Origin: a virus
Length of the DNA: 23,598 nt
Strand: one strand, 5' to 3'
Virus record (IMG/VR): IMGVR_UViG_3300047379_000427
Span: 1 to 23,598 of that record
Positions within the stretch are counted from its first letter, which is position 1. Each line of letters opens with the position of its first letter. The translations under genes were made by a program, and so were the position numbers. Shown here in pieces: positions 3,208 through 23,598 of this stretch. Below the pieces are notes generated by a model. It had not been told where the DNA came from. It ran no database searches and was given only the letters and a program-made list of their open reading frames with translations.

Positions 3208-3464
3208 AATCAGAATGTCCACCCGAGTTTTATGAATGTCTAACTGAAGAAGAGTATGACGACATATTAGACCTCTTCGAAGAAAACGATATGGTTATGC
3301 CTGAATCTTTGGGTGACGTAGAAGCTGCATCTGATTTCGTATGGCAAATTCTTTTCTTGACACCTATAGAGTTGGTCTACATAGGATTCACAATGACAAT
3401 ACTTGCAACTTACGGACTCTCTATATATTATATGTACAAAAGGATACAAAAGAAATTTAGTTAA
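3204..3464 (+). CDS. 86-aa membrane protein with acidic N-terminus
   Basis: An 86-residue protein starting at the ATGA overlap with the second curlin gene; a longer form from 3162 would run deep into that gene and is less likely. Residues 1-48 are strongly acidic with two early cysteines (SECPPEFYEC). Residues about 55-77 (LVYIGFTMTILATYGLSIYYM) form one transmembrane helix, followed by a basic tail (KRIQKKFS), which predicts a cytoplasmic C-terminus. The stop overlaps the next start (TAATG). No family recognised. Its place at the end of the curli-like block suggests an envelope function, but nothing in the sequence proves that. Confidence 0.7.
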   Translation: MKSECPPEFYECLTEEEYDDILDLFEENDMVMPESLGDVEAASDFVWQILFLTPIELVYIGFTMTILATYGLSIYYMYKRIQKKFS

Positions 3465-4039
3465 TGTTTGAGAACTGGTCGGTCAAAAGAGTCGAGAGGT
3501 CAGACATAAAAGACTTCATAGAAACTCATCACTATTCAAAATCAATCAACGGATGTATTGCAGATTACTGTTATGCATTGTTCCACGAAGAACAAATGAA
3601 AGGTGCAATGTTCTATGGTAGGTTTGCTATGATGAACCAGTGGATGAAATACGGAGATAACAAAGAGGATGTAATAGAACTTAGAAGACTCTGTTGCATT
3701 GATGACACTCCAAAGAACACTGAAAGTTTTTTTATTGGTGCATCCCTAAGACAACTTAAAAAGGATTGGGGTGGTAAGACTGTAGTTAGTTATGCAGATA
3801 ATGAATATGGACATGAGGGAATCATCTATAAAGCAACCAACTTCGATTACATAGGACAAACTAAGTTTGATAGAGTTATCATACATGGAGACCGAAGATA
3901 CCACGACAAGACGATTAGGACAAAGGATGCACATGGTGTATTGAAACCATATGCACAAAAGATTAAAGATGCATTAGAAGAAGGTACTGCACATTATCAT
4001 AGAACTAAAGGAAAGAACATTTTCGTGTATAAATACTAG
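3464..4039 (+). CDS. mom-like: Mom-like adenine-modification protein (GNAT-type)
   Basis: A 191-residue protein resembling the phage Mu Mom family, a GNAT-fold group that modifies adenine in phage DNA so that restriction enzymes fail to cut. The recognisable stretch runs from the early HHYSKS through FYGRFAMMN, then VIELRRLCCIDDTPKNTES, FFIGASLRQLKK, VVSYADNEYGHEG and YKATNFDYIG; this combination is typical of Mom-like proteins in tailed phages. Length is near that of Mu Mom (about 230 aa). The gene starts at a TAATG overlap and its last codons (GTG TAT AAA TAC TAG) contain a promoter-like box for iscU. With the C5-methyltransferase/dioxygenase pair at 7939-10183 it suggests modification of both adenine and cytosine. 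The exact chemistry here is not known; another GNAT transferase is the alternative. Confidence 0.75.
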   Translation: MFENWSVKRVERSDIKDFIETHHYSKSINGCIADYCYALFHEEQMKGAMFYGRFAMMNQWMKYGDNKEDVIELRRLCCIDDTPKNTESFFIGASLRQLKKDWGGKTVVSYADNEYGHEGIIYKATNFDYIGQTKFDRVIIHGDRRYHDKTIRTKDAHGVLKPYAQKIKDALEEGTAHYHRTKGKNIFVYKY

Positions 4040-4046
4040 TATGGCA
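4017..4046 (+). repeat. 30-nt promoter/start module, copy 1
   Basis: The first 16 nt (ACATTTTCGTGTATAA) are identical to 17957-17972. In both copies the ATGGCA start lies exactly 8 nt further on, so the two 30-nt modules align without a length change. Copy 1 spans the mom-like stop and the iscU start. Confidence 0.8.
4028..4035 (+). promoter_or_regulatory. T4-late-like promoter of iscU
   Basis: TATAAATACTAGT closely matches the T4 late consensus TATAAATACTATT. The box ends 5 nt before the iscU ATG, so a transcript starting about 6 nt downstream would begin at the start codon itself. No Shine-Dalgarno is correctly placed for iscU, which supports a leaderless mRNA. Confidence 0.6.
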
Positions 4047-4439
4047 TATTCAAAGAAAGTAATCGATAGATTCGAAGGTGTTCTCAATGCACCCGAACAA
4101 TTCTCTGTTGGAAGATTTGACCCAAAAGACCCAACTGTTGCAACTGGAATGGCAGGAGCTCCTGCATGTGGTGATGTAATGAAACTTCAATTGAAAATAG
4201 ACCCAGGCAACAATCGTATAGTCGATGTCAAGTTTAAAACGTATGGTTGTGGAAGTGCAATTGCATCCAGTTCACTATTTGTGGATTTACTTAAAGGGTT
4301 GACCATAGAAGAAGCAAAAGAAATTAAGGATAAGGACATTGCAGATGCATTGGAATTACCACCAATTAAATTACACTGCAGTGTTCTTGCAGAAGATTCA
4401 ATTAGAAAGGCAATAGAGGATTGGGAAAGTGATGGATAA
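4041..4439 (+). CDS. iscU: IscU-type Fe-S cluster scaffold
   Basis: A 132-residue IscU homologue of normal family length. IscU receives sulfur from IscS, builds a [2Fe-2S] cluster and passes it on with HscA/HscB. All ligand positions are present: Cys43 and Asp45 (APACGD), Cys70 (YGCGSA) and His112-Cys113 (LHCSVLAEDS). The HscA-binding motif LPPVK appears as LPPIK (residues 106-110). The protein therefore looks functional and would have to use host IscS and HscA, since no partners are visible. It begins one base after the mom-like stop, with a late-promoter-like box just upstream. It may maintain host Fe-S proteins during infection or serve a phage protein; neither is shown by the sequence. 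Confidence 0.93.
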   Translation: MAYSKKVIDRFEGVLNAPEQFSVGRFDPKDPTVATGMAGAPACGDVMKLQLKIDPGNNRIVDVKFKTYGCGSAIASSSLFVDLLKGLTIEEAKEIKDKDIADALELPPIKLHCSVLAEDSIRKAIEDWESDG

Positions 4440-7357: not shown

Positions 7358-7386
7358 TTACAGATACACCTGTTATGTTGTATAAT
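7358..7386 (+). promoter_or_regulatory. Possible sigma70-type promoter of the peroxiredoxin gene
   Basis: Perfect TATAAT (7381-7386), 17 nt after a weak -35 (TTACAG). The -10 lies in the loop of the hairpin annotated at 7362-7400, so promoter and terminator overlap. AAAACCC stands just upstream, as at two other promoters in the window. Confidence 0.45.
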
Positions 7387-7400
7387 GGGTGTATCTTTTT
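7362..7400 (+). terminator. Hairpin plus T-run after hsp20
   Basis: A perfect 9-bp inverted repeat (AGATACACC at 7362-7370, GGTGTATCT at 7388-7396) with a 17-nt loop, followed by TTTTT. It fits a rho-independent terminator for hsp20, although the loop is long. A -10 box sits in the loop, so it may also act as an operator. Confidence 0.6.
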
Positions 7401-7417
7401 ATATTATGGAGAAAAAA

Positions 7418-7939
7418 ATGGAAGAAGTACATATGGGTCTGCCTTTAGTTGAAGGACAAGAAGTACCTAACGTAGACTTAACAATAAGAGTTGATGGTGA
7501 TTTCGTTCAACTAAACACAAAAGAACAATTTGCAAATAAAAGAGTAATACTATTTGCATTGCCTGGCGCATTCACACCAACATGTTCAACACAACAATTG
7601 CCTGGCTTTGAAGAAAAGTTTGCAGAGTTCCAAGAAAAAGGAATCGATGAGATATATTGTTTATCCGTAAACGATACATTCGTAATGAACTCGTGGTTTG
7701 AATCACAAAACATTACTAATATTTTTCCACTTCCCGATGGGAATGGAGAGTTCACTCATATGATTGGTGCAGAATGTAAAAAATCTAATTTAGGATTTGG
7801 ATACAGGTCTTGGAGATATGCATTAGTAATTAATGATGGCAAAGTAGAAAAAATATTCATAGAAGAAGGTTTTGGTGATAATGTCGAATCCGACCCTTAT
7901 GAAGTTTCCTCACCCGAGAATGTGCTAAATACATTGTAA
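7418..7939 (+). CDS. Prx5-type peroxiredoxin
   Basis: A 173-residue redoxin of the Prx5 / PrxII subfamily, which reduces hydrogen peroxide and organic peroxides. The peroxidatic cysteine is Cys56 in PGAFTPTCS; the catalytic Thr and Pro are in the same motif, and the conserved Arg is in GYRSWRYALVI. Other family signs are VNDTFVMNSW and the GEFTHMIG stretch. I start at ATG 7418 because GGAG lies 6 nt upstream; ATG 7406 would place that sequence inside the gene. The stop overlaps the methyltransferase start (TAATG). Electron donors would come from the host. Together with iscU and hsp20 it forms a stress-linked set. Confidence 0.92.
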   Translation: MEEVHMGLPLVEGQEVPNVDLTIRVDGDFVQLNTKEQFANKRVILFALPGAFTPTCSTQQLPGFEEKFAEFQEKGIDEIYCLSVNDTFVMNSWFESQNITNIFPLPDGNGEFTHMIGAECKKSNLGFGYRSWRYALVINDGKVEKIFIEEGFGDNVESDPYEVSSPENVLNTL

Positions 7940-9180
7940 TGAACGATTATTTCAGATATACTCTTAAAGACTTAGAAGAAAACTCTGCACAAAAGAAGTT
8001 TAACTATATAACTTTTTTTGCTGGTGGTGGAGGTTCTTCTTGTGCTTACAAACTCGAAGGTGGAGACTGTAGATATATGAATGAGTTTCAACAACTACAT
8101 GTTGATACCTACCTTCAAAACTTTCCCAATACAATTCATGAATGCAAAGACATTAAAGAAGTTACGGGTAAGGGTATTATGGAACTTAGTGGACTTAAAG
8201 TTGGAGAGATAGATATCTTAGATGCAAGTCCTCCATGTCCACCATTCTCTATGGCAGGTTCTAAACGTGAAGGTTGGAACAAGGAAAAAATTGCATACGG
8301 AATGAAACAAACTAACATTGAAGATTTGACTTGGGAAGTAATTAGAATTACTGGAGAACTTAAACCCAAAGTTGTCATATGTGAAAATGTAAAAGGTCTT
8401 ACAATGGATTATGCAAAAGACCATCTAATCAGAATGATTCAAGACTTTGAAGCAGAAGGTTATTCTGCAGTCTATAAAGTTATGAAAGGACAAGAACATG
8501 GAGTCCCACAAAAAAGGGAAAGAACTTTCATACTTGCAGTTCGTAATGATGTGTTAGATAAAATAGGAATGCCATGGATGGTATTAGGAAGTGTTTTTCC
8601 CGAACCATCTGATAAAGAATGGACTGTAAGAGATGCAATCGAAGACCTACAAGATGATGAAGAGAATATAGTAGATGCAACTTACTTAGAAGAAGCAATG
8701 AGAACATCTTCTAAAGCACATTGGGTATTTGGATTTGATACTCATCCCGACTTTCCAAACTCTGGCCCATGTTTAGGAATGAGAGGAATCAATGACAGAA
8801 ATAGAGTTATAAGTATTGGGGATGATATAGTTGGCCCATGGTTCAAAACACAAATCAAAAATGGAATCATAGACCCCGAAGATGAGAAACACTCATACTA
8901 CATGTCAAGAATAGTTCCGTGGGAACAAGCAGCCCATTCGTTGACTGAACAAGGTTGTCAACCAAAATTTATGGGTGGTAATCATTTCCATCCAAGTGGA
9001 GAAAGAATATATACTCCAAAAGAACTACAAAGAATTATGACGTTACCCGATGATTATAAATCAACTGGAGACTATAATGATAAAGGTGCAAGGATAGGAT
9101 TAATGGTTGCACCCTTATGCTTAAGGACACTTGTAGAAAGTGTTAATACAAATATATTGGAGAAGTACAATGTCAATTAG
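7939..9180 (+). CDS. C5-cytosine DNA methyltransferase
   Basis: A 413-residue enzyme that transfers a methyl group from S-adenosylmethionine to carbon 5 of cytosine. Motif I is FFAGGGGSS (26-34), motif IV is SPPCPPFS with catalytic Cys100, motif VI is CENV (149-151), motif VIII is QKRERTF (191-197), and the C-terminal motif IX/X region includes IYTPKELQRIMTLPDDY and GLMVAPLCLRTL. The target-recognition region lies about 225-345. There is no restriction endonuclease beside it. The 11-nt overlap with a TET/JBP-like dioxygenase suggests that its product, 5-methylcytosine, is the substrate of that enzyme. The recognition sequence cannot be read from the protein. Confidence 0.93.
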   Translation: MNDYFRYTLKDLEENSAQKKFNYITFFAGGGGSSCAYKLEGGDCRYMNEFQQLHVDTYLQNFPNTIHECKDIKEVTGKGIMELSGLKVGEIDILDASPPCPPFSMAGSKREGWNKEKIAYGMKQTNIEDLTWEVIRITGELKPKVVICENVKGLTMDYAKDHLIRMIQDFEAEGYSAVYKVMKGQEHGVPQKRERTFILAVRNDVLDKIGMPWMVLGSVFPEPSDKEWTVRDAIEDLQDDEENIVDATYLEEAMRTSSKAHWVFGFDTHPDFPNSGPCLGMRGINDRNRVISIGDDIVGPWFKTQIKNGIIDPEDEKHSYYMSRIVPWEQAAHSLTEQGCQPKFMGGNHFHPSGERIYTPKELQRIMTLPDDYKSTGDYNDKGARIGLMVAPLCLRTLVESVNTNILEKYNVN

Positions 9181-10183
9181 AACACACACCCCAAAGGTTG
9201 ACCATGGTTTTGCATGGACTAAAGAAAAATACAATGGACAGTGGTTAGATGGAAGTGAGATTACTGATTTGGTTTCTACTGTAGGAACAACAGATGAGTT
9301 AACTAAAATCTATAAACCAGTATCAACTCTCGGAGAAGAACCACCATTACTAGCATGTATTGTTAAAGGTGTTTACAAAGGTAAACAGTTAGAAGAACTT
9401 AGAGAAACAGTTCAATCTATAGAAGAAGTATCTACACTTCGTGCAAATGCAGCTGGCCCTATAGACCATGAAGAAATGAAAAGGAAAGGTTTGATTGAAG
9501 GTGTTCATTATAAAATGAGAACTGCAAACTCATATTATCCAATAAAGAAAAATGGTCAGTTTAATCGTATTGCAGAAGCAAATCCTATCCATTCTATTTT
9601 TATGGGTCATAAGAGAGGAAGATTTACAGGAATGATTGGACTAAGTGGTTGGTCTAAACTTGCAAGAAACAAAGAGAAATGGGAGAAGATGCAAGACATA
9701 GCATTACTAAATGAGGTTGCACTAAAGAAAGGTGCGCCAGAGGTATGGCAAAAACAAAGAGAGTTTTGTGATGAATGTGTTGAATCACAATACACATTAA
9801 AAGGAGCTCCCTTTACTTCTATATCTGCAAACAAATATTCTTATGTAGAAGGTGCAGGAAAAATGTCTGCACATGTCGATGGTGATGATTTAGATTTTGG
9901 TATGACAACCATGTGTGTATTCCGTTGTGGAGATTACAAAGGTGCATACTTATCATTCCCGAGATATGGAATAGGAATTGATGCTGACGATGGTGATGTA
10001 ATTATTGCAGACTCAAATGAAATACATGGAGTTACCCAAATAGAAGGAACAGGTGTTAGACATACTTGTGTTGCATATTGTGGAAGTGATGTTGCAACAA
10101 AAGGTGTAAGAGGTAAAACAGAGAATCCTATCGGGCATCATCATAGAGACAAACACGGTAATCTAGATACATTCTTCAGTTAA
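9170..10183 (+). CDS. TET/JBP-like 2-oxoglutarate Fe(II) dioxygenase
   Basis: A 337-residue protein starting at ATG 9170, with GGAG 7 nt upstream. It shows the iron and 2-oxoglutarate signature of the TET/JBP family: His235-x-Asp237 (SAHVDGDD), distal His286 (SNEIHGVTQ) and Arg297 (GVRHTC). The spacing Asp-49-His-11-Arg is close to that of Naegleria Tet1. The conserved strands between are MCVFRCGDYKGAYLSFPRYG and DDGDVIIAD. The N-terminal 150 residues have no assignment. Phage TET-like enzymes next to a C5-methyltransferase oxidise 5-methylcytosine to 5-hydroxymethylcytosine, which may then be decorated. No glycosyltransferase is in the window, so the final product here is open. The C-terminus is His-rich (GHHHRDKHG). 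Confidence 0.83.
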   Translation: MSIRTHTPKVDHGFAWTKEKYNGQWLDGSEITDLVSTVGTTDELTKIYKPVSTLGEEPPLLACIVKGVYKGKQLEELRETVQSIEEVSTLRANAAGPIDHEEMKRKGLIEGVHYKMRTANSYYPIKKNGQFNRIAEANPIHSIFMGHKRGRFTGMIGLSGWSKLARNKEKWEKMQDIALLNEVALKKGAPEVWQKQREFCDECVESQYTLKGAPFTSISANKYSYVEGAGKMSAHVDGDDLDFGMTTMCVFRCGDYKGAYLSFPRYGIGIDADDGDVIIADSNEIHGVTQIEGTGVRHTCVAYCGSDVATKGVRGKTENPIGHHHRDKHGNLDTFFS

Positions 10184-11430: not shown

Positions 11431-11657
11431 GTAGAGAAACATTATTAAAAGCATTACAATCACAATATCAAGGTCAAATGGATATTGCAATGGCAAACAT
11501 CAAAGTTTATCAAAACAATCCTGCAGGTATCGGAGAACATCCCGATGTTGCAGAAGCACTTGATACTCAAGTAGAAAAATATGCAACTGCAAAAGAAAAG
11601 TACGATGCAGTCCAAAGTATTTTAAATCAAAAACCCCAAACTACATTGACAGAATAG
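11427..11657 (+). CDS. 76-aa conserved phage protein, unknown
   Basis: A helical protein (LLKALQSQYQGQMDIAMANI) with the motif NNPAGIGEHPDVAEALDTQ, which I recall from small proteins near replication genes in T4-like cyanophages. The second half predicts a coiled coil (DTQVEKYATAKEKYDAVQSI). Function unknown. Its end carries the -35 box of the polymerase promoter. Confidence 0.7.
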   Translation: MSRETLLKALQSQYQGQMDIAMANIKVYQNNPAGIGEHPDVAEALDTQVEKYATAKEKYDAVQSILNQKPQTTLTE

Positions 11658-11674
11658 TATCCGTATAGTATAAT
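11646..11674 (+). promoter_or_regulatory. Consensus sigma70 promoter of the DNA polymerase
   Basis: Perfect TTGACA (11646-11651), 17 nt spacer and perfect TATAAT (11669-11674). The polymerase ATG is 7 nt after the last T, where transcription should begin, and there is no Shine-Dalgarno, so the mRNA may be leaderless. Confidence 0.85.
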
Positions 11675-11680
11675 TACTAC

Positions 11681-14197
11681 ATGGATTTCTACACTAATGT
11701 CTGCAGAACCCGTGACAAAATTCTAGTCACTGGATATCAAGGAAACAAAAAACAAAAACTATCTGTATCTTACAGACCTAAACACTTTGTCCAATCTAAG
11801 AAAGGGGATACTGCTTACAGGTCTTTAGACGGTAGACCACTTGAAGTTGTCGAACTTAACTCAATGGGTGGTGCAAGAAAGTTTAGAGAACAGTATGCAG
11901 GAACACAAGGATTTGATATCCATGGGTATGACAGATACATCTACACCTATATTGCAGACAAGTGGCCAACAGAAGTTGAATGGGATTATACCAAAGTAAA
12001 AATTGCAACACTTGACATTGAGTGTGAATCAGAAAATGGATTTCCCGAACCAACCATTGCACAAGAAAAGGTCAATGCAATAACAATCAAACCATTCAGA
12101 CACAATGCACATACATTTGGTATTGGTCGTTGGGATGAATGTCCTAGCAATGTTGTTTACTATGAATGTAAAGACGAGGCACACTTACTAGAAGAGTTTA
12201 TCAAACACTGGAGAAAGGCATCCTATGATATCATTACTGGTTGGAATGTAGATTCGTTTGATATCACATATCTCTGTAATCGTATTGATAGATTGTTTGG
12301 AGAAGACCAACACAAAAGATTATCACCTTGGAATATGTCTGATTTTAGAGAGTTCACTTCCTATGGATATCAGAAGAATCAGAAATACACTTTGTATGGA
12401 ATCAATGTTATTGATTACATGGAGTTGTATCAGAAGAGAACTTTCGTCAATCAAGAATCATATTCATTGAATCACATTTCCCATGTTGAATTGGGTAAAG
12501 CAAAACTAGATTACTCGGAACATGGTTCACTACATGGACTTTACAAGAATGATTATTCTAAGTACCTTGCATATAATGTGCAGGATGTTGTTCTCGTAGA
12601 AGACTTAGAAGAAAAACTTGGACTACTAGAATTGACTATGACGATGTCATATGATGCCAAGTGTAATTACTCTGATACTTTTGGAATGGTAAAATACTGG
12701 GAAACTATTATATACAACTTCCTTAAGAAACAAAACATCCAAACACCACCACAAAAATTAAAACAAACCAAGACACATTCTATTGTCGGTGCATATGTCA
12801 AAGAACCTATTGTAGGGAAACATGATTGGGTAATGTCATTTGACTTAAACTCACTCTATCCACATTTAATCATGCAGTTCAACATATCACCCGAGACAAT
12901 AATCAAAGGTGGTCAGAGAATGGATGTAACCATTCAGAATATGCTTGATGGTGAATCAGACTTATCCCAACTTAAGAAGTCCAACAGAACAGTTGCACCT
13001 AATGGAGTAATGTTCAAACGTGACAAACAAGGATTCCTTCCCGAACTCATGGAAACATTTTATGATGAACGTAAGATGTGGAAGAAGAAGATGATTGAGT
13101 ATCAGATTGAAAAGGAATCATGTAAAGAACCTAAACGAAAAAAAGAATTAGAGAGTCTCATCAAACGTGCATACAATAATCAACAGGTAAGAAAGATTGC
13201 ACTTAACTCTGCATATGGGGCTCTTGCAAATCAATACTTTGCATTCTTTGACCCAAACCTTGCAGAAGCAATTACCATGTCGGGTCAGTTAGTTATTAAG
13301 GTTGCAGAGAAAACAATAAACAATTGGATGAACAATGTCCTTAAAACAGAAGACGAAGATTATGTAATTGCAATGGATACCGACTCAGTTTACATTACTT
13401 TTGATAAACTAGTGTCACAAGTGTTTCCCGAAAATACGGATAAGGACAAAATTATCAACTTTCTTGACACTATAGGAAGGGAGAAAGTAGAGGGCATATT
13501 ATCCAAAGGGTATGATGAACTTGCAGATTATACTAATGCATTCCAACAGAAGATGGAAATGGGACGTGAGGTAATTGCAGATAGAGGTATTTGGACTGCA
13601 AAGAAAAGATACATTCTAAATGTATTTGACTCTGAAGGTGTTAGGTTTGAAGAACCTAAATTGAAAATGATGGGTATTGAAACTGCAAAATCATCTACAC
13701 CCGAATGGGTCAGAGGCAGACTTACAGATGCATTCAAAGTTGTTATGAATGGAACTGAACAAGAACTATGGGATTTCGTAGAGACTGCACGAAAGGATTT
13801 TAGAAACCTTCCAGTTGAGAAGATGAGTTCACCGAGAGGTTGTAATAACCTTGAACAATATTCAGACCCAACATCTATTTACTCTAAGGGAACACCCATA
13901 CACGTAAGAGGTGCTTTACTTTACAACCACCAACTTAAGAAACTAAACATAGATAAACGATACGAGAACATCCGAAGTGGAAACAAAATTCTCTTTACCT
14001 ATCTCAAACTACCCAACAAGATGAATGAGAATGTAATATCATACTCAAATGTTCTACCAAAAGAGTTTGACTTACAGAATTATATTGATTACGACAAACA
14101 GTTTGATAAATCATTCATAGAACCATTAAATGCAGTTATCAGCAAAATTGGTTGGAATGTTGAACCAGTGGCATCCTTAGATTCCTTTTTCGGATAA
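11681..14197 (+). CDS. 43: Family B DNA polymerase (gp43)
   Basis: An 838-residue replicative polymerase with both active sites intact. Exonuclease motifs: Exo I with Asp112 and Glu114 (TLDIECE), Exo II with Asp191 (GWNVDSFD) and Exo III (YNVQDVVLVEDL). Polymerase motifs: A with Asp388 (SFDLNSLYPH), B (KIALNSAYGALAN) and C with Asp566-Thr-Asp568 (AMDTDSVYI). T4 gp43 has 898 residues, so this is a compact version. The C-terminus LDSFFG resembles a sliding-clamp-binding tail. It starts a new unit with a strong promoter, apparently without a leader. Confidence 0.97.
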   Translation: MDFYTNVCRTRDKILVTGYQGNKKQKLSVSYRPKHFVQSKKGDTAYRSLDGRPLEVVELNSMGGARKFREQYAGTQGFDIHGYDRYIYTYIADKWPTEVEWDYTKVKIATLDIECESENGFPEPTIAQEKVNAITIKPFRHNAHTFGIGRWDECPSNVVYYECKDEAHLLEEFIKHWRKASYDIITGWNVDSFDITYLCNRIDRLFGEDQHKRLSPWNMSDFREFTSYGYQKNQKYTLYGINVIDYMELYQKRTFVNQESYSLNHISHVELGKAKLDYSEHGSLHGLYKNDYSKYLAYNVQDVVLVEDLEEKLGLLELTMTMSYDAKCNYSDTFGMVKYWETIIYNFLKKQNIQTPPQKLKQTKTHSIVGAYVKEPIVGKHDWVMSFDLNSLYPHLIMQFNISPETIIKGGQRMDVTIQNMLDGESDLSQLKKSNRTVAPNGVMFKRDKQGFLPELMETFYDERKMWKKKMIEYQIEKESCKEPKRKKELESLIKRAYNNQQVRKIALNSAYGALANQYFAFFDPNLAEAITMSGQLVIKVAEKTINNWMNNVLKTEDEDYVIAMDTDSVYITFDKLVSQVFPENTDKDKIINFLDTIGREKVEGILSKGYDELADYTNAFQQKMEMGREVIADRGIWTAKKRYILNVFDSEGVRFEEPKLKMMGIETAKSSTPEWVRGRLTDAFKVVMNGTEQELWDFVETARKDFRNLPVEKMSSPRGCNNLEQYSDPTSIYSKGTPIHVRGALLYNHQLKKLNIDKRYENIRSGNKILFTYLKLPNKMNENVISYSNVLPKEFDLQNYIDYDKQFDKSFIEPLNAVISKIGWNVEPVASLDSFFG

Positions 14198-17973: not shown

Positions 17974-17986
17974 CTACTATATGGCA
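17957..17986 (+). repeat. 30-nt promoter/start module, copy 2
   Basis: Shares its first 16 nt and the terminal ATGGCA, at equal spacing, with 4017-4046 in front of iscU. The 8 nt between differ but both contain CTA and end in T. Confidence 0.8.
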
Positions 17987-19183
17987 GTTAAAAATTTACA
18001 TTTAGAACACTTAGAAGATGAAATCATCAACAATGGTATCGATGGTGGTCGTGCAGCTATAAACTTCTTACAGGGTCTTAGAGACATGATGAAGGGAAAC
18101 TCTAAGAAGAGTGTTAATATGACTGTTAAGTGGGATGGAGCTCCTGCAATCTTTTGTGGTAAACACCCCGAAACCAATCAATTCTTTGTTGCAAAGAAAT
18201 CCTTATTTAATAAAGAACCTAAGTTCTATACTTCAGAACAACAAATTAAAGATGCACCCGAACTAAGTGGTGCATTAGAATCTAAGTTTTTAGACTCATA
18301 CAAGTATTTGTCTGCACTATCATTTTCTGATATATTGCAGGGCGATTTAATGTTCACTGATGATAAAAATGAGAAAACTATTGATGGAGAAGACTTCATC
18401 ACATTCCAACCCAACACTATCTTGTATGCAATTCAGAAAGATTCTGAAGTGGGTAAAGAAATTGACCGTGCAAAACTAGGAATAGTATTTCACACAACCT
18501 ATTCGGGGACTAGTATTGAAACACTAAGTGCATCATTCGGTGCAGATACATCTAAGTTGGGTAAGAGCAGTGATGTATGGGTAGACGATGCATCATATAA
18601 GGATGTCAGTGGTAAAGGTTCGATGACTGCAAAGGAAACATTAAAGTTAACACAAACACTAAGTGCAACAGGTAAACAATTCCATAAGATTACAAAACCA
18701 AACTTAGTTAAATTTCAAAAAGTGCAAGAGATGATTAATGCAAAAGGTGCTGGTGCATCTTATAAGACATACTGTAATGCACAAATCAGACAAGGAAAAT
18801 TCAACCCAACCTATGAGGGATATCTAAAACACTTTGAAAACTACTGGAGAGATAAAGTAGTTGCAAAGGTTAAGATGGAAAAGACTAAACAAATCAAACA
18901 AGAGATTGGTGAACAAGTCTATGCAGAACTTAGAGGTCTTAAAACAACTATAGAAGCACTAACTAAATTCATGAATGGATTAGTGATATCAAAACAACTT
19001 ATTATCAATGCATTAAACAGAGTCAAATCAATCGGTACTTTTAAGAAGACTGCAACAGGATTTGAAACGGTAAACCCCGAAGGTTATGTTGCAATTGATA
19101 CTAATGGTAAAGCAGTAAAACTTGTAGATAGAATGGAGTTTGCATTCAACAACTTTACTGTTGCAAAGGACTGGGACAAGTAA
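17981..19183 (+). CDS. Large conserved phage protein (DUF6267-like) with ligase-type KxDG motif
   Basis: A 400-residue protein whose opening (MAVKNLHLEHLEDEI) I recall from conserved proteins of T4-like marine phages, probably DUF6267. Residues 50-53 read KWDG, and the segment VKWDGAPAIFCG followed by FFVAKKS looks like motif I of covalent nucleotidyltransferases (DNA/RNA ligases, K-x-D-G). ILQGDLMF (118-125) could be motif III; later Lys-rich strands (ITKPNLVKFQKV) could include motif V. Residues about 260-400 are helical and basic. It may therefore be a divergent ligase or a dead ligase fold; the motif evidence is suggestive only. Its probable partner is the nucleotidyltransferase-kinase two genes on. 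The start has no Shine-Dalgarno and follows a promoter directly. Confidence 0.65.
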   Translation: MAVKNLHLEHLEDEIINNGIDGGRAAINFLQGLRDMMKGNSKKSVNMTVKWDGAPAIFCGKHPETNQFFVAKKSLFNKEPKFYTSEQQIKDAPELSGALESKFLDSYKYLSALSFSDILQGDLMFTDDKNEKTIDGEDFITFQPNTILYAIQKDSEVGKEIDRAKLGIVFHTTYSGTSIETLSASFGADTSKLGKSSDVWVDDASYKDVSGKGSMTAKETLKLTQTLSATGKQFHKITKPNLVKFQKVQEMINAKGAGASYKTYCNAQIRQGKFNPTYEGYLKHFENYWRDKVVAKVKMEKTKQIKQEIGEQVYAELRGLKTTIEALTKFMNGLVISKQLIINALNRVKSIGTFKKTATGFETVNPEGYVAIDTNGKAVKLVDRMEFAFNNFTVAKDWDK

Positions 19184-19371
19184 TGAAATCATTTGGTCAG
19201 TTCAATGAGGATATTAGAGTCCGTATAAATATAGGTGATACTATACTTGGTGGTAAATTTAAGAACAAGAAAATTGTTGTTAAAGATATAGGTAAGAACG
19301 AAAAGGGAGACATTACAATTAATGGTAAACCTTTACTTAAATACAGGATAATACCTAATGAAAACATTTAA
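19183..19371 (+). CDS. 62-aa protein with capsid-targeting-like N-terminus
   Basis: A small protein starting at a TAATG overlap. The first residues (MKSFGQFNED) resemble the N-terminal capsid-targeting sequence of T4 internal proteins (MKTYQEFIAE), though the cleavage-site Leu/Ile is missing. The rest (GGKFKNKKIVVKDIGKNEKG, then INGKPLLKYRI) is a small beta domain that recurs in T4-like marine phages. A TATAAATA lies inside the gene (19224) but encodes Ile-Asn-Ile and is not annotated as a promoter. Confidence 0.65.
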   Translation: MKSFGQFNEDIRVRINIGDTILGGKFKNKKIVVKDIGKNEKGDITINGKPLLKYRIIPNENI

Positions 19372-20638
19372 TAAATTCTTAACAGAAGCAACAGATAAAG
19401 GTGCAGTGTTTTCATTTGGAAGATTCAATCCACCTACAACAGGTCATGCTAAGTTAGTAGACAAACTCAAACAGGAATCTACTGGATATACTCCATTGAT
19501 TTTTACATCACATTCAACCGATACAAAGAAGAATCCTTTAAGTCATAGAGATAAGATTAAGTTCTTAAGAAAGTTCTTTGGTAGGATAATTGTTGACTCA
19601 CAAACACGAACTGTATTTGAAATTGCAGTAGAGTTACACAACCAAAAGTATAACAAAATCAAAATGGTAGTTGGTTCAGATAGAATCAGAGAGTTTGAAA
19701 TGTTATTGAAAAAGTATAACGGAGTCAAAGCACGACATGGGTACTACAAGTTTGATGACATTCTTGTTGTATCTGCAGGAGAGAGAGACCCCGATGCAGA
19801 TGACACTAGTGGAATGAGTGCATCAAAACTTAGAGGTCTTGCACAAGACGGAAGGTATGATGAGTTTGCAGAAGGTGTTCCAACAAGAAACAAGAAAGAC
19901 AAAGAACTACTTTATAAAGCAGTAAGAAAGGGAATGGGTATTGCAGAAGGTACACTACCCACATACATGTATGAAGATTTGATTACAGAAGGGGTCTATG
20001 ACCCTGGCACATTCAAAGCAGTTTTCTTTAGTGGAGGGCCAGGCAGTGGTAAGTCAACAGTAGTTGATGCACTTGCACTAAAATCACTTGGTCTTAAACT
20101 AGTAAATACAGATAAAGCATTTGAACTAGGTCTAAAGAAAGCAGGAATGACACTTGACCTTAGAGGTGCAGACTTTAGTAAAGTAGACCCTATCCGTGCA
20201 AATGCAAAAAGGGTGACTGGAAAGGGTATGGATATGTATATTGATGGTAGACTTGGATTGATATTTGACACTACCAGTGCAAACTTAGATAAAGTCAAAC
20301 AATACAAAGAAATGTTAGATGGTATTGGATACGAATCTAAGATGATACATGTTAGTACATCACTTGCATTTGCACAAAAACGAAATGCAGAGAGACCAAG
20401 GAAATTACCACCCGAAATAGTAGAGAAAGATTGGAATAATTCAACTCGAAACATGATAGCATTACAGAGAATATTCAAAGGTGACTTCTTATCAGTATCA
20501 AATGATGATGATTTAAAATCACTACAAACTAAAGCAAACAAACTCTATGCAAAACTCTTGAGATGGACTACTTCATTCCCAAGTAATAAACTTGCAAAGA
20601 AGTGGAAAGACCAAGAACTACAGTTAAAGAAATCATAA
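19358..20638 (+). CDS. Nucleotidylyltransferase-P-loop kinase fusion with capsid-targeting-like leader
   Basis: A 426-residue two-domain protein. Residues 1-10 (MKTFNKFLTE, next residue Ala) closely match the T4 capsid-targeting sequence MKTYQEFIAE/A that gp21 cleaves. Residues about 14-190 form a cytidylyltransferase-like HxGH-superfamily domain, with GRFNPPTTGH (21-30), VVGSDRI (105-110) and the ISSTxIR-like SASKLR (154-159); NMN adenylyltransferases and NadR are the nearest known types. Residues about 218-426 are a P-loop kinase with GGPGSGKS (226-233) and a following LVNTDKAFE, resembling zeta-toxin-type or polynucleotide kinases. Between the domains, GIAE/G and LITE/G look like prohead-protease sites. 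Layout recalls NadR, but the kinase looks different. The start has AGGA 9 nt upstream and overlaps the previous gene by 14 nt. Confidence 0.82.
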   Translation: MKTFNKFLTEATDKGAVFSFGRFNPPTTGHAKLVDKLKQESTGYTPLIFTSHSTDTKKNPLSHRDKIKFLRKFFGRIIVDSQTRTVFEIAVELHNQKYNKIKMVVGSDRIREFEMLLKKYNGVKARHGYYKFDDILVVSAGERDPDADDTSGMSASKLRGLAQDGRYDEFAEGVPTRNKKDKELLYKAVRKGMGIAEGTLPTYMYEDLITEGVYDPGTFKAVFFSGGPGSGKSTVVDALALKSLGLKLVNTDKAFELGLKKAGMTLDLRGADFSKVDPIRANAKRVTGKGMDMYIDGRLGLIFDTTSANLDKVKQYKEMLDGIGYESKMIHVSTSLAFAQKRNAERPRKLPPEIVEKDWNNSTRNMIALQRIFKGDFLSVSNDDDLKSLQTKANKLYAKLLRWTTSFPSNKLAKKWKDQELQLKKS

Positions 20639-20646: not shown

Positions 20647-22119
20647 ATGGATTTATTAGATAAGATACTCAACGAAGTAAAACAAGACAAAGATGTCAAA
20701 GACAAGGATGGAACTCAACCTGCAAAATACTATGCAGGAGATATGTCTAAGTCCACAAAAGATAAAAGAGATGCACACTTCAAAGCAAAAAAGAGTGGCC
20801 CAGCACCTGGCGATGCATCTGCAGAGACTAAAAAGTCTAAACACACTATGAAATTTGATAGAATGTTTAATGAAGATAAAGGACTCGATGCAAAAGCAAA
20901 AAAATCGGGTATCTCTAAATCTATCTTAAAGAAAGTTTACGATAGAGGATTAGCTGCATATAAGACTGGTCATAGACCTGGCGCAACTGCACCCCAATGG
21001 GCAATGGCACGTGTTAATTCTTTTATCACTAAAGGTAAAGGAACATGGGGTGGTGCAGACCAAGACCTTGCAAAGAAAGTCAGAGGTGAATCAATCGAAG
21101 AATCAGTTGATGTCAAAAAGGTACTATCGAAAATTAAAGGTCTTAGTAAAAAACAATTAGAAGCATTATCAACAATGAACACTTCACAATTAACAGTTGT
21201 AGTTCAACAGTTAAGTGGTTTGGTCATGGGTGAACAAGATGAATGTTGGGACGGATACACACAAAAAGGTATGAAAAAGAAAGGGGACAAAATGGTGCCC
21301 AATTGTGTTCCCGAAGAAACAGTCAACGAAAATGTTGCAGTTAAACAAGCAGAACTTAAAGCAAAACAAGTCGAAGAGATGGAAAGACTTAAAGAGAAAC
21401 AAGAGAAAGAACTTGAAGCACTTAAGTTGAGACATGAAAGAGATAACGAAAAACTTTCAAAAGAAAAGGACGGGGAGTCAGAACGAGATAGACTTTCCAA
21501 CGAATCGGTAGAAGAAGGTAAGTATGTTTCAGACTATAGAGATGTTTTGGGTGTTATTTTAAAGAAGATTGGACTCAAGGTTGAGAAAGAATTTCTAAAG
21601 AACCAAGAAAAAGGTGTATCAATCATAAATACATTAGGTGCAATGGTTGGACATAAAGTAACCGATAAAGGACAAGACAAACACAGATTATTCCTTAAGT
21701 TCGGTGAAGAGTTAGAAGAAGGATATGCAGAGAGACTAAGAGACAAAACTAAGTCTCAACAGAAAGCACATCAAAAGGCAATGATGAAAATTGCAAGAAA
21801 ATCTATCAAAGACTATGATAAAAGAAATAAGAAATCTGAAGAAGTCGAAGAGGATAGAGATTACAAAAAGGAATATGAGAATTATCACTCAGACCCTAAA
21901 CAGATTAAAAGACGTGCAAAGAGAAATGAAGCACGAAGAAGTTTAAAGAACAGTAAGAAACTTACTGCAGATAAAGACGTACATCATAAGGATAACAATC
22001 CTATGAACAACGATAAGTCTAATCTTAGTATTGTTTCTCAGAATTACAACAGAAAAGAACCTCGTATGAGGGACAAACTAAAGGAAAAGGGGTGTTTACC
22101 AAATGGCAAAAGGAAATAA
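20647..22119 (+). CDS. Modular polyprotein with DUF5824-like, Cys-pair and HNH-like parts
   Basis: A 490-residue, highly charged protein. Residues about 80-145 (KSILKKVYDRGLAAYKTGHR, then PQWAMARVNSFI) match a DUF5824-like phage domain. Residues 200-220 are the module C-WDGYTQKGMKKKGDKMVPN-C seen in several T4-like marine phages, perhaps metal binding. Residues about 229-285 are a long charged coiled coil. Residues 290-355 form another unknown domain. Residues about 405-475 look like an HNH nuclease: DVHHKDNNPMNNDKSNL with the downstream Asn. Linkers carry glutamate sites like those of the T4 prohead protease: ILNE/V (10), IEE/S (152), VEE/G (290), LEE/G (358). I infer a processed head or internal polyprotein. 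The start at 20647 follows a late-like box; an upstream ATG (20602) lies inside the previous gene. Confidence 0.75.
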   Translation: MDLLDKILNEVKQDKDVKDKDGTQPAKYYAGDMSKSTKDKRDAHFKAKKSGPAPGDASAETKKSKHTMKFDRMFNEDKGLDAKAKKSGISKSILKKVYDRGLAAYKTGHRPGATAPQWAMARVNSFITKGKGTWGGADQDLAKKVRGESIEESVDVKKVLSKIKGLSKKQLEALSTMNTSQLTVVVQQLSGLVMGEQDECWDGYTQKGMKKKGDKMVPNCVPEETVNENVAVKQAELKAKQVEEMERLKEKQEKELEALKLRHERDNEKLSKEKDGESERDRLSNESVEEGKYVSDYRDVLGVILKKIGLKVEKEFLKNQEKGVSIINTLGAMVGHKVTDKGQDKHRLFLKFGEELEEGYAERLRDKTKSQQKAHQKAMMKIARKSIKDYDKRNKKSEEVEEDRDYKKEYENYHSDPKQIKRRAKRNEARRSLKNSKKLTADKDVHHKDNNPMNNDKSNLSIVSQNYNRKEPRMRDKLKEKGCLPNGKRK

Positions 22120-23598
22120 ATTTAACAACGGAGTATGGGAACAGGGAACACCCGAAATCGTACTTGCATATCAACACGACACACCTGGCCAGAAGGTAGA
22201 AGAATATGTAGAAGGTCTTCAACTTCAGAATGAGAAGAAGAAACTTAATGCAAAAAAACAATTCACACAAGTATTCGATAATCCTCTAAAAGGTTTCCCT
22301 TACAACGAAGAGTTTGAAGTAAAGGAAATTAAAGAAGAAACTGTATCAGAAAATGCAGACATGGTAATCCATGTTGATGATAAACTTCAAACAAATCTTG
22401 TTACTAAAATGGCAAGTAAATTCGGACTAACATCAAAGAAAACTAAAATTTCTTGGTCAGGTAAAGACGGAGTTGTTGTATCAGGTGATGCAAATAAATT
22501 AAAGAAGTTTATGTCATCAGTTGAAAATGTGTTTAAAGAAGAAACTATAACAGAAATCAAACAACAAGAAGTTGATGCATTAAAGAAACTATCTAAAGAA
22601 ATGCAATCAGTTCTAAAAGGTTATCAAAAGATTGCTAAAATGGGTGATAAAGAACTTACAAACACAAAGTATAATAAAGATTACGAAGCAGTTCTTAAGT
22701 CAAGAGACACTATCTTACAACTTATTGGTAAAGTAAATACTCAGAAGATTTTAAACAAAGAAGAAATTGTAAATTCTTTAGAAGAAGATTACAAAAAAGT
22801 AATCAAAATGTTCCCAAGAGATAACGACTGGAAAAAACTTATCACAAAACATAGACGTGCAATTGATGATTTCAGAAACAATAACAAAGATTTACCTTCT
22901 AAAGTAGAGGATGAATTATTAACTTGGGCATCACAAACTGGTGAAGTCAGTGGTAAACATGATGCAGAAGATTTCATACTAGATATCCTTGATGAGAAAT
23001 TTAAACCTTACATGCCGAGAGGATATGAAAGAGTTACCGATATGTATATCCAGTTCAGAGGAAATGGAGAAGAGAAAGACTTTGCAAAGGCAAAGAAAAT
23101 GGTTATGGATTACTCTAAAAAACATAAACTAGATATCAAAGATAACCCAAGAAACAAAGTATTCGGAACACCTCAAGAAGGTTCAAGTGCATATAAAATA
23201 AGTCTTTTTGCAAAGTTCACTAAAGATGAAAATCATGACCTTGCACCACTGTACAAACAATTAGCAACATTGAAGACTGCAGAAGACCATGGTGGTGGTA
23301 ATGCAGAACCAATCAAAGAGAACTACAGGACTGCAGCTAGACATGGTATGGGTACTGAAGGTAAGAAAGAGGCAAGAGTCGGTTTAGAATTAGACTATTA
23401 CGATAAAACTGGTACAAAGTACATGGGTAAAATCGTAAAGAAAGATTCAAAAGGTTACACAGTCAAAGATGACAAAAGTGGTAAGATGCATACGTTTGTC
23501 TATCACGACAGAATCAAGGCAAGAAAATTCTTACAGAAAGTTGGTGAAGAAGGTGATAATATGTTAACTAAATTAAAGATTTCATTCAAAGAAGACAC
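22103..23598 (+). CDS. Second long modular polyprotein, 3' partial
   Basis: An open frame of at least 498 codons that starts 17 nt inside the previous gene (ATG 22103) and continues past the window without a stop. No known enzyme domain is seen. Segments: residues 1-75 unknown; about 83-145 a small alpha-beta unit (IHVDDKLQTNLVTKMASKFG); about 152-220 helical; about 225-300 an acidic helical unit; about 300-390 another unit (YERVTDMYIQFRGNGEEKDF); about 425-470 an SH3-like strand pair (YMGKIVKKDSKGYTVKDDKS). Acidic linkers ending in Glu (ITE/I at 151, LEE/D at 228) resemble the cleavage-like sites of the preceding protein. Probably a related processed structural or internal protein; function unknown. 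Confidence 0.8.
   Translation, partial: MAKGNKFNNGVWEQGTPEIVLAYQHDTPGQKVEEYVEGLQLQNEKKKLNAKKQFTQVFDNPLKGFPYNEEFEVKEIKEETVSENADMVIHVDDKLQTNLVTKMASKFGLTSKKTKISWSGKDGVVVSGDANKLKKFMSSVENVFKEETITEIKQQEVDALKKLSKEMQSVLKGYQKIAKMGDKELTNTKYNKDYEAVLKSRDTILQLIGKVNTQKILNKEEIVNSLEEDYKKVIKMFPRDNDWKKLITKHRRAIDDFRNNNKDLPSKVEDELLTWASQTGEVSGKHDAEDFILDILDEKFKPYMPRGYERVTDMYIQFRGNGEEKDFAKAKKMVMDYSKKHKLDIKDNPRNKVFGTPQEGSSAYKISLFAKFTKDENHDLAPLYKQLATLKTAEDHGGGNAEPIKENYRTAARHGMGTEGKKEARVGLELDYYDKTGTKYMGKIVKKDSKGYTVKDDKSGKMHTFVYHDRIKARKFLQKVGEEGDNMLTKLKISFKED

Follow-up and report, generated by a model that had tools for sequence, protein, structure and literature searches.

The stretch of DNA analysed here, referred to as the window, comprises 23,598 nucleotides of IMG/VR record IMGVR_UViG_3300047379_000427. 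The fragment derives from a T4-like marine phage, most likely a Kyanoviridae-like one, and its 23.6 kb include genes for gp43, an endonuclease VII-like protein, UvsX, and gp41. Near its 3' end lie two overlapping plus-strand genes, A (to 22119) and B (from 22103), for which the original prediction proposed long charged proteins built from small unrelated modules and resembling head core or internal proteins matured by a prohead protease. Both open reading frames (ORFs) were present, and comparison by BLAST and hidden Markov models with relatives (about 140 IMG/VR loci together with named phages) split these chains into 15 or more small modules. The block is larger than these two genes. It starts at 17981 or 19183, consists 3' of gp41 of a DUF6267 gene (17981), a 62-amino-acid gene (19183), gene C (19358), gene A (20647), and gene B (22103), and continues beyond the window. 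Gene B is cut off by the window end, and its full length was read from contig L082, which is 100% identical to the window and extends past it. Further 3' in L082, leader-like gene starts were found (MKTFHELAINE/T, 8133-8666; MSYKSENWHQKLAE/V, 9232-9804; MKTFKNFLNE/D, 11560-11949; a slash here follows the glutamate that ends a leader or linker), and the block therefore goes on for at least 4 kb. The features are the following.

17981..19183 (+): DUF6267 protein, 400 amino acids, first block gene after gp41 (Pfam PF19782, E 6e-101)
19183..19371 (+): 62-amino-acid gene with T4-type leader MKSFGQFNE/D (F-x-E; leader scan)
19358..19387 (+): gene C leader MKTFNKFLTE/ (next residue A), T4-like and putatively capsid-targeting by likeness to T4 ipI, ipII, and ipIII
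19388..19990 (+): gene C cytidylyltransferase-like module, ending DLITE/ (Pfam PF01467, E 2e-5; PHROG 3041, E 6e-57)
19991..20635 (+): gene C P-loop kinase (Zeta/AAA_33) module (Pfam PF06414, E 2e-10)
20647..22119 (+): gene A, modular protein of 490 amino acids from the ATG at 20647 (MDLLDKILNE; ORF call)
20647..20676 (+): gene A putative leader MDLLDKILNE/ (next residue V; sequence and leader scan)
20683..20874 (+): DUFn, N-terminal part of DUF5824, ending MFNE/ (comparison with relatives)
20875..21087 (+): DUFc, C-terminal part of DUF5824, alone in relatives (e.g. MIKFSQYITE/NEG..)
21103..21234 (+): A_160, flanked by IEE/ and MGE/ (comparison with relatives)
21235..21315 (+): Cys module CWxGYxxxGxKxKxxxxVPNCVPE (32-row alignment)
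21331..21492 (+): A_CC, charged coiled-coil-like linker (motif map and structure prediction)
21517..21708 (+): A_290, [IVLMF]-x-E before and mostly G after (junction alignment)
21721..21852 (+): A_358, flanked by LEE/ and VEE/ (junction alignment)
21853..22074 (+): HNH-like nuclease module after VEE/, C-terminal in gene A (Pfam, PHROG, conservation)
22103..23598 (+): gene B, first 498 of 706 amino acids (3' end from L082:5685-7805)
22103..22351 (+): B_N, N-terminal (GNK..DNGVxExGT..DTPGQ..NPLKGFPYNEE), ending VSE/ (comparison with relatives)
22352..22555 (+): B_86, ending FKE/ or ITE/ (comparison with relatives)
22556..22786 (+): B_147, helical, preceded by [LIV]xE[IVT] in 18 of 18 non-redundant junctions
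22787..22996 (+): B_226 ([LVIF]xE/DYKKVIKM..), alone in L141 as MKFKELRE/DYKKVIKM
22997..23320 (+): B_298 (comparison with relatives)
23321..23598 (+): B_404 ([VLIM]xE/NYR..), predicted SH3/Tudor-like barrel (weak structural hint)

An alternative GTG start of gene A at 20602 lies upstream and overlaps the preceding gene. Residues 25-140 of gene A match DUF5824 (PF19141, E 9e-24).

A constant order of modules in all relatives was one of the outcomes that would have spoken against the original prediction. The order was not constant: the 366 module-bearing ORFs from about 140 related marine viral loci showed 102 distinct module orders. The same module was found after many different partners, or alone. 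A_290 had ten kinds of upstream context, DUFc shifted into B-type chains, and the HNH module was C-terminal, preceded by assorted partners, placed before DUFn, or stand-alone.

The acidic linkers ending in L/I/V-x-E, another element of the original prediction, exceeded chance both in junction shuffling and in a border-free breakpoint test. [LIVMF]xE was present in 221 of 243 non-redundant module junctions, compared with 133 expected when the same windows were shuffled (maximum 155 in 500 shuffles). Position -2 relative to glutamate was hydrophobic in 43% of cases at junctions, 5% within modules, and 30% in the remaining ORFs of these loci (base 22-27%). Over 14 module families, the interior mean at -2 was 0.054, the lowest of the offsets (others 0.13-0.25), and 13 of the 14 families were under base. 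In the second test, which used BLAST breakpoints only and no hand-set module borders, local-alignment breakpoints were about twice as dense at LxE glutamates as at other glutamates (P=0.0028 in A and P=0.0021 in B), with -2 as the top offset for breakpoint concentration in both. Every [LIVMF]xE of gene A lies at or beside a module edge except two in A_CC (residues 244 and 250), the sole gene A stretch with internal LxE, and nearly all of those in gene B do so. Moreover, P2 varies freely with P3 and P1 fixed ([VLIM]xENYR, [LVIF]xEDYKKVIKM, and [IVLMF]xEGK), a pattern that reads as a protease site, unlike a shared DNA motif. Genome-wide LxE depletion per ORF was dropped as a marker of internal proteins because the signal was too weak per protein, even in the internal proteins of T4.

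A T4-type leader (about 10 residues, aromatic or hydrophobic at positions 4 and 7, ending in L/I-x-E) was identified in gene C, the 62-amino-acid gene, and, putatively, gene A; the corresponding T4 leaders are MKTYQEFIAE/A in IPII and IPIII and MKTFKEFTSTTTPVSTITE/A in ipI. Several modules exist in relatives as small genes of their own. The first 8-14 residues of these are T4-leader-like, and the LxE that closes them falls roughly at the position expected of the internal site. The HNH module alone reads MMTFRQLFE/RDYKKEYENY, compared with VEE/DRDYKKEYENY in the chain, and a fission/fusion pair reads MNFKQLRSKLLE/GTMEFGIF alone and LKE/GTMAIGIK in the chain. The gene C kinase is a gene of its own in HTVC008M (gp129), with MIPFILKE/GLYDPG versus the in-chain ITE/GVYDPG here, and the DUF6267 protein has no clear leader in the window, but its HTVC008M homologue (gp127) begins MYNDLLVE/D. 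S-RIM8 has what looks like a leader in the interior of a chain (EISFQQFQE/KCWKGYKQVGMKKK, versus stand-alone MISFKQLRE/KCWAGYHAVGMKK). In L068 and L077, the HNH module starts bare (MPRDYKKEYENY), with no leader. The simplest reading is that leader-bearing internal-protein genes would have been fused with the cut site retained.

Both the Cys-flanked GY-GMK-VPNC motif and the HNH-like end of the first protein were located in gene A as originally described. The Cys-flanked motif is ECWDGYTQKGMKKKGDKMVPNCVPEE, and residues C200, W201, G208, K210, V217, P218, C220, and V221 are invariant in 32 rows. Near the terminase of cyanophages, a second modular protein (S-RIM8 gp147, L164:1067-2842; the S-B43 'structural protein', L163:2102-3385) carries a GY-C module and others (ACYxKVKxRYxVWPSAYASGALVKC, GAAWTRxEGQN..SLRAWNC), with LxE at the joints. 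The HNH match of gene A was weak in Pfam (HNH_3, E 0.0044, below the cut-off) and reached E 3.6e-10 with PHROG 4590; a stand-alone homologue in Pelagibacter phage Gjalp exceeds the HNH_3 cut-off (E 5e-8). The signature VHHxDxNPxNNxxxNL is conserved in the alignment of relatives, and in 29 rows H447, D449, N454, and N459 are kept in 97-100% and H446 in 83%. With this HNH endonuclease signature and the family match, the C-terminal module is a predicted nuclease. A PDB sequence search with the module gave no match, and its structural neighbours Gme HNH and I-HmuI were not significant. In Gjalp, a podovirus of an unrelated family, the HNH homologue stands alone (L165:2507-2731) between the scaffolding and capsid genes.

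AlphaFold models had a mean predicted local distance difference test score of 68 for gene A and 62 for gene B, with a predicted template modelling score of 0.27 for both. They show A and B as small domains without fixed arrangement, like beads on a string. The low-confidence gaps of the gene A model coincide with most LxE sites. Foldseek against the PDB found nothing significant (best E 0.68 for gene A and 0.024 for gene B); the HNH, SH3/Tudor-like, and ferredoxin/KH-like neighbours are hints, not significant. None of the A, B, and C proteins matched a peptidase family in Pfam and PHROG profile searches, PADLOC assigned neither these three nor HTVC008M gp126 to a defence family, and gene B had no match among INPHARED phages.

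The T4 prohead protease gp21 cleaves after the glutamate of L/I-x-E (PMC9026906). A gp21-type prohead protease (PF03420, Peptidase_S77) turned up in each of the five relatives that span 100 kb or more (E 1e-26 to 4e-44) and in relatives only, the window being a fragment without head genes. The N-terminal part of the major capsid protein contains LTE/A in T4, where it is the known cleavage site, and in S-CREM2 (the S-CREM2 site being our own reading), and LGE/I at about the same place in HTVC008M. Mass spectrometry of S-CREM2 virions detected a cytidylyltransferase, gp136, gp155, gp156, and gp160, and the authors warn of possible carry-over in this proteome (PMC10665884). The cytidylyltransferase and gp136 have the leaders MKNFSSFLTE/A and MQTFSMFFSE/D, gp156 matches NTP_transf_2, and gp160 carries a variant GY-C type module (CWPGYEKKGTKK..NNCV) that we liken to GY-GMK-VPNC. 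S-SM1 virions also contain a cytidylyltransferase, T4-GC190 (PMC3037559). The likeness to head core or internal proteins is supported by T4-type leaders, protease genes of large relatives, and homologues reported in cyanophage virions. A stretch of S-CREM2 gp160 (L157:25343-26236), GFTGAAAPEGPVAGYDPLMG, is shared with the major capsid protein (L157:15482-16852), where it lies in the N-terminal region of the mature form (GFTGAAAPGGPNAGFDPVMIG).

From these sequence comparisons, we consider it probable (about 0.7) that C, A, and B are T4-type internal (core) proteins fused to polyproteins, which would be cut at the joints in the prohead, with the modules kept with the DNA and some of them injected. 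Small internal-protein genes would have been fused into polyproteins, and the short N-terminal leader on C and A would bring the chain into the prohead core. There, a gp21-type prohead protease would cut after the glutamate at [LIV]-x-E of each linker and free the folded modules, which would remain with the DNA as leaders and linkers exit. Some modules (the cytidylyltransferase, P-loop kinase, HNH nuclease, and small modules of uncharacterised role) may be injected as early effectors, and the domains that act on nucleotides might point to a role in early takeover of the host or in counter-defence. The chances are even that the block represents a true polyprotein strategy for injected proteins, in which unrelated effectors behind one leader would be set free in trans by the protease that matures the capsid, and new ones could be added by in-frame fusion at an LxE linker. 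That the array is an effector cassette we infer on good support, not as demonstrated fact.

Several observations weigh against this interpretation. Neither gene B nor the DUF6267 gene has a clear leader in the window, and a loose leader pattern matches about 4-6% of ORFs generally and 16 of 262 T4 ORFs, for which reason it was downgraded from a genome-wide test to a lead. No protease match was present in a 32 kb extension of the window; therefore, the protease presumed for this phage rests on its larger relatives. In gene C, the bigger enzyme domains hold internal [LIVMF]xE (residues 86, 110, 170, and 354), so motif avoidance is not universal. Because module borders were partly drawn by eye, the junction count is not fully independent, although the breakpoint test is. 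With glutamate positions fixed, the association of LxE with low-confidence segments of the single models was not significant (P=0.11 and 0.34). Finally, no observation of cleavage or injection of such chains, or of an effector role, was found in the open-licence literature searched.

The chains could alternatively be a disposable core or scaffold like T4 gp22, gp67, and gp68, which would fill the prohead and be chopped at many LxE, the fragments leaving without any host function. In T4, gp21 does cut core proteins into several pieces (PMC9026906); moreover, A and B are charged and rich in gaps, and B_N and A_CC contain internal sites. However, module interiors avoid the motif, so that intact domains are spared; nuclease, kinase, and nucleotidyltransferase domains are retained; homologues are reported in mature virions; and modules also occur as separate leader-bearing genes, which makes this explanation unlikely. 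Still less probable are uncut modular proteins of the virion or replication locus, with LxE as a by-product of acidic linkers that tolerate recombination breaks. Glutamate itself is enriched in linkers (23 of 45 glutamates of A fall in low-confidence segments), but the signal is specific to offset -2, with strong depletion in modules and none in control ORFs, and the same site ends the N-terminal leaders of stand-alone versions. It is also doubtful that the HNH module is a homing, selfish, or packaging-associated nuclease whose entry into the chain was accidental, in which case the array would be no effector cassette. HNH homing genes exist in T4 and a free homologue lies between scaffolding and capsid genes in Pelagibacter podoviruses, but the module is found again and again in different architectures, for the most part behind an acidic linker, or on its own with a leader.

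The components (T4 internal proteins, the prohead protease, and polyvalent proteins) are of known kinds. Their combination, in which internal proteins consist of several modules and every joint bears a capsid-protease site, was not found in the open-licence literature, a prior report elsewhere being possible. Like T4 IPI-III and Alt (PMC9026906), the marine proteins have a leader of about 10 residues (MKT[FY]xxF[IL]xE/) ending in L/I-x-E, relatives that encode a gp21-type protease, highly variable gene content, and homologues reported in virions. In contrast, T4 internal proteins are small with one cut at the leader, whereas the marine chains have up to eight unrelated modules with a site per joint and map between gp41 and gp61. 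Polyvalent proteins (Iyer et al., 2017, PMC5512222) also combine unrelated domains in one chain, with proposed delivery with the DNA, and have been likened to polyproteins. There, embedded peptidase domains (seen in some members) release parts; no peptidase was found in the marine chains, which would be cut in trans by the capsid protease and have small modules. The ejection proteins of phiKZ and SPN3US, with a prohead protease acting at AxE sites (PMC10052503), are likewise mass-packed and lose propeptides by several cuts after glutamate, but yield one mature domain after a long propeptide, whereas the marine chains would release several. The same domains as here, DUF5824 (PF19141), DUF6267 (PF19782), and the PHROG 3041/455 cytidyltransferases, have already been seen in various fusions in cyanophages, annotated as unknown or as metabolic enzymes, with no processing or capsid role assigned in the literature consulted.

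Marine T4-like phages are abundant in the sea, their internal proteins are largely unidentified, and the virion 'cytidylyltransferase' has hitherto been taken for a metabolic gene. Should cutting at the joints occur, many small proteins would be delivered from few genes with their per-capsid copy numbers coupled, and LxE-bounded modules would allow overlooked internal proteins to be recognised by sequence in genomes without annotation. Such a system would also offer a natural model of how a single capsid can be loaded with several proteins.

Leader-like starts were also seen in other phages. T4 gene 61.1 (L153:18966-19130; 54 amino acids, hypothetical), in the gp41-gp61 interval like the marine block, has the internal-protein-like leader MKTFKEFIKE/DMVAGDSGG, and its product may be an unrecognised T4 internal protein. 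HTVC008M gp126 (L152:4233-5291), which had no Pfam match, begins with the leader-like LSFTGYSNLSE/A, followed by TDFTIGNNKISLKSG, which resembles a PD-(D/E)xK nuclease motif. In addition, the window carries genes for a Mom-like DNA modification protein (3464-4039), a NifU-like protein (4041-4439), and a peroxiredoxin (7385-7939).
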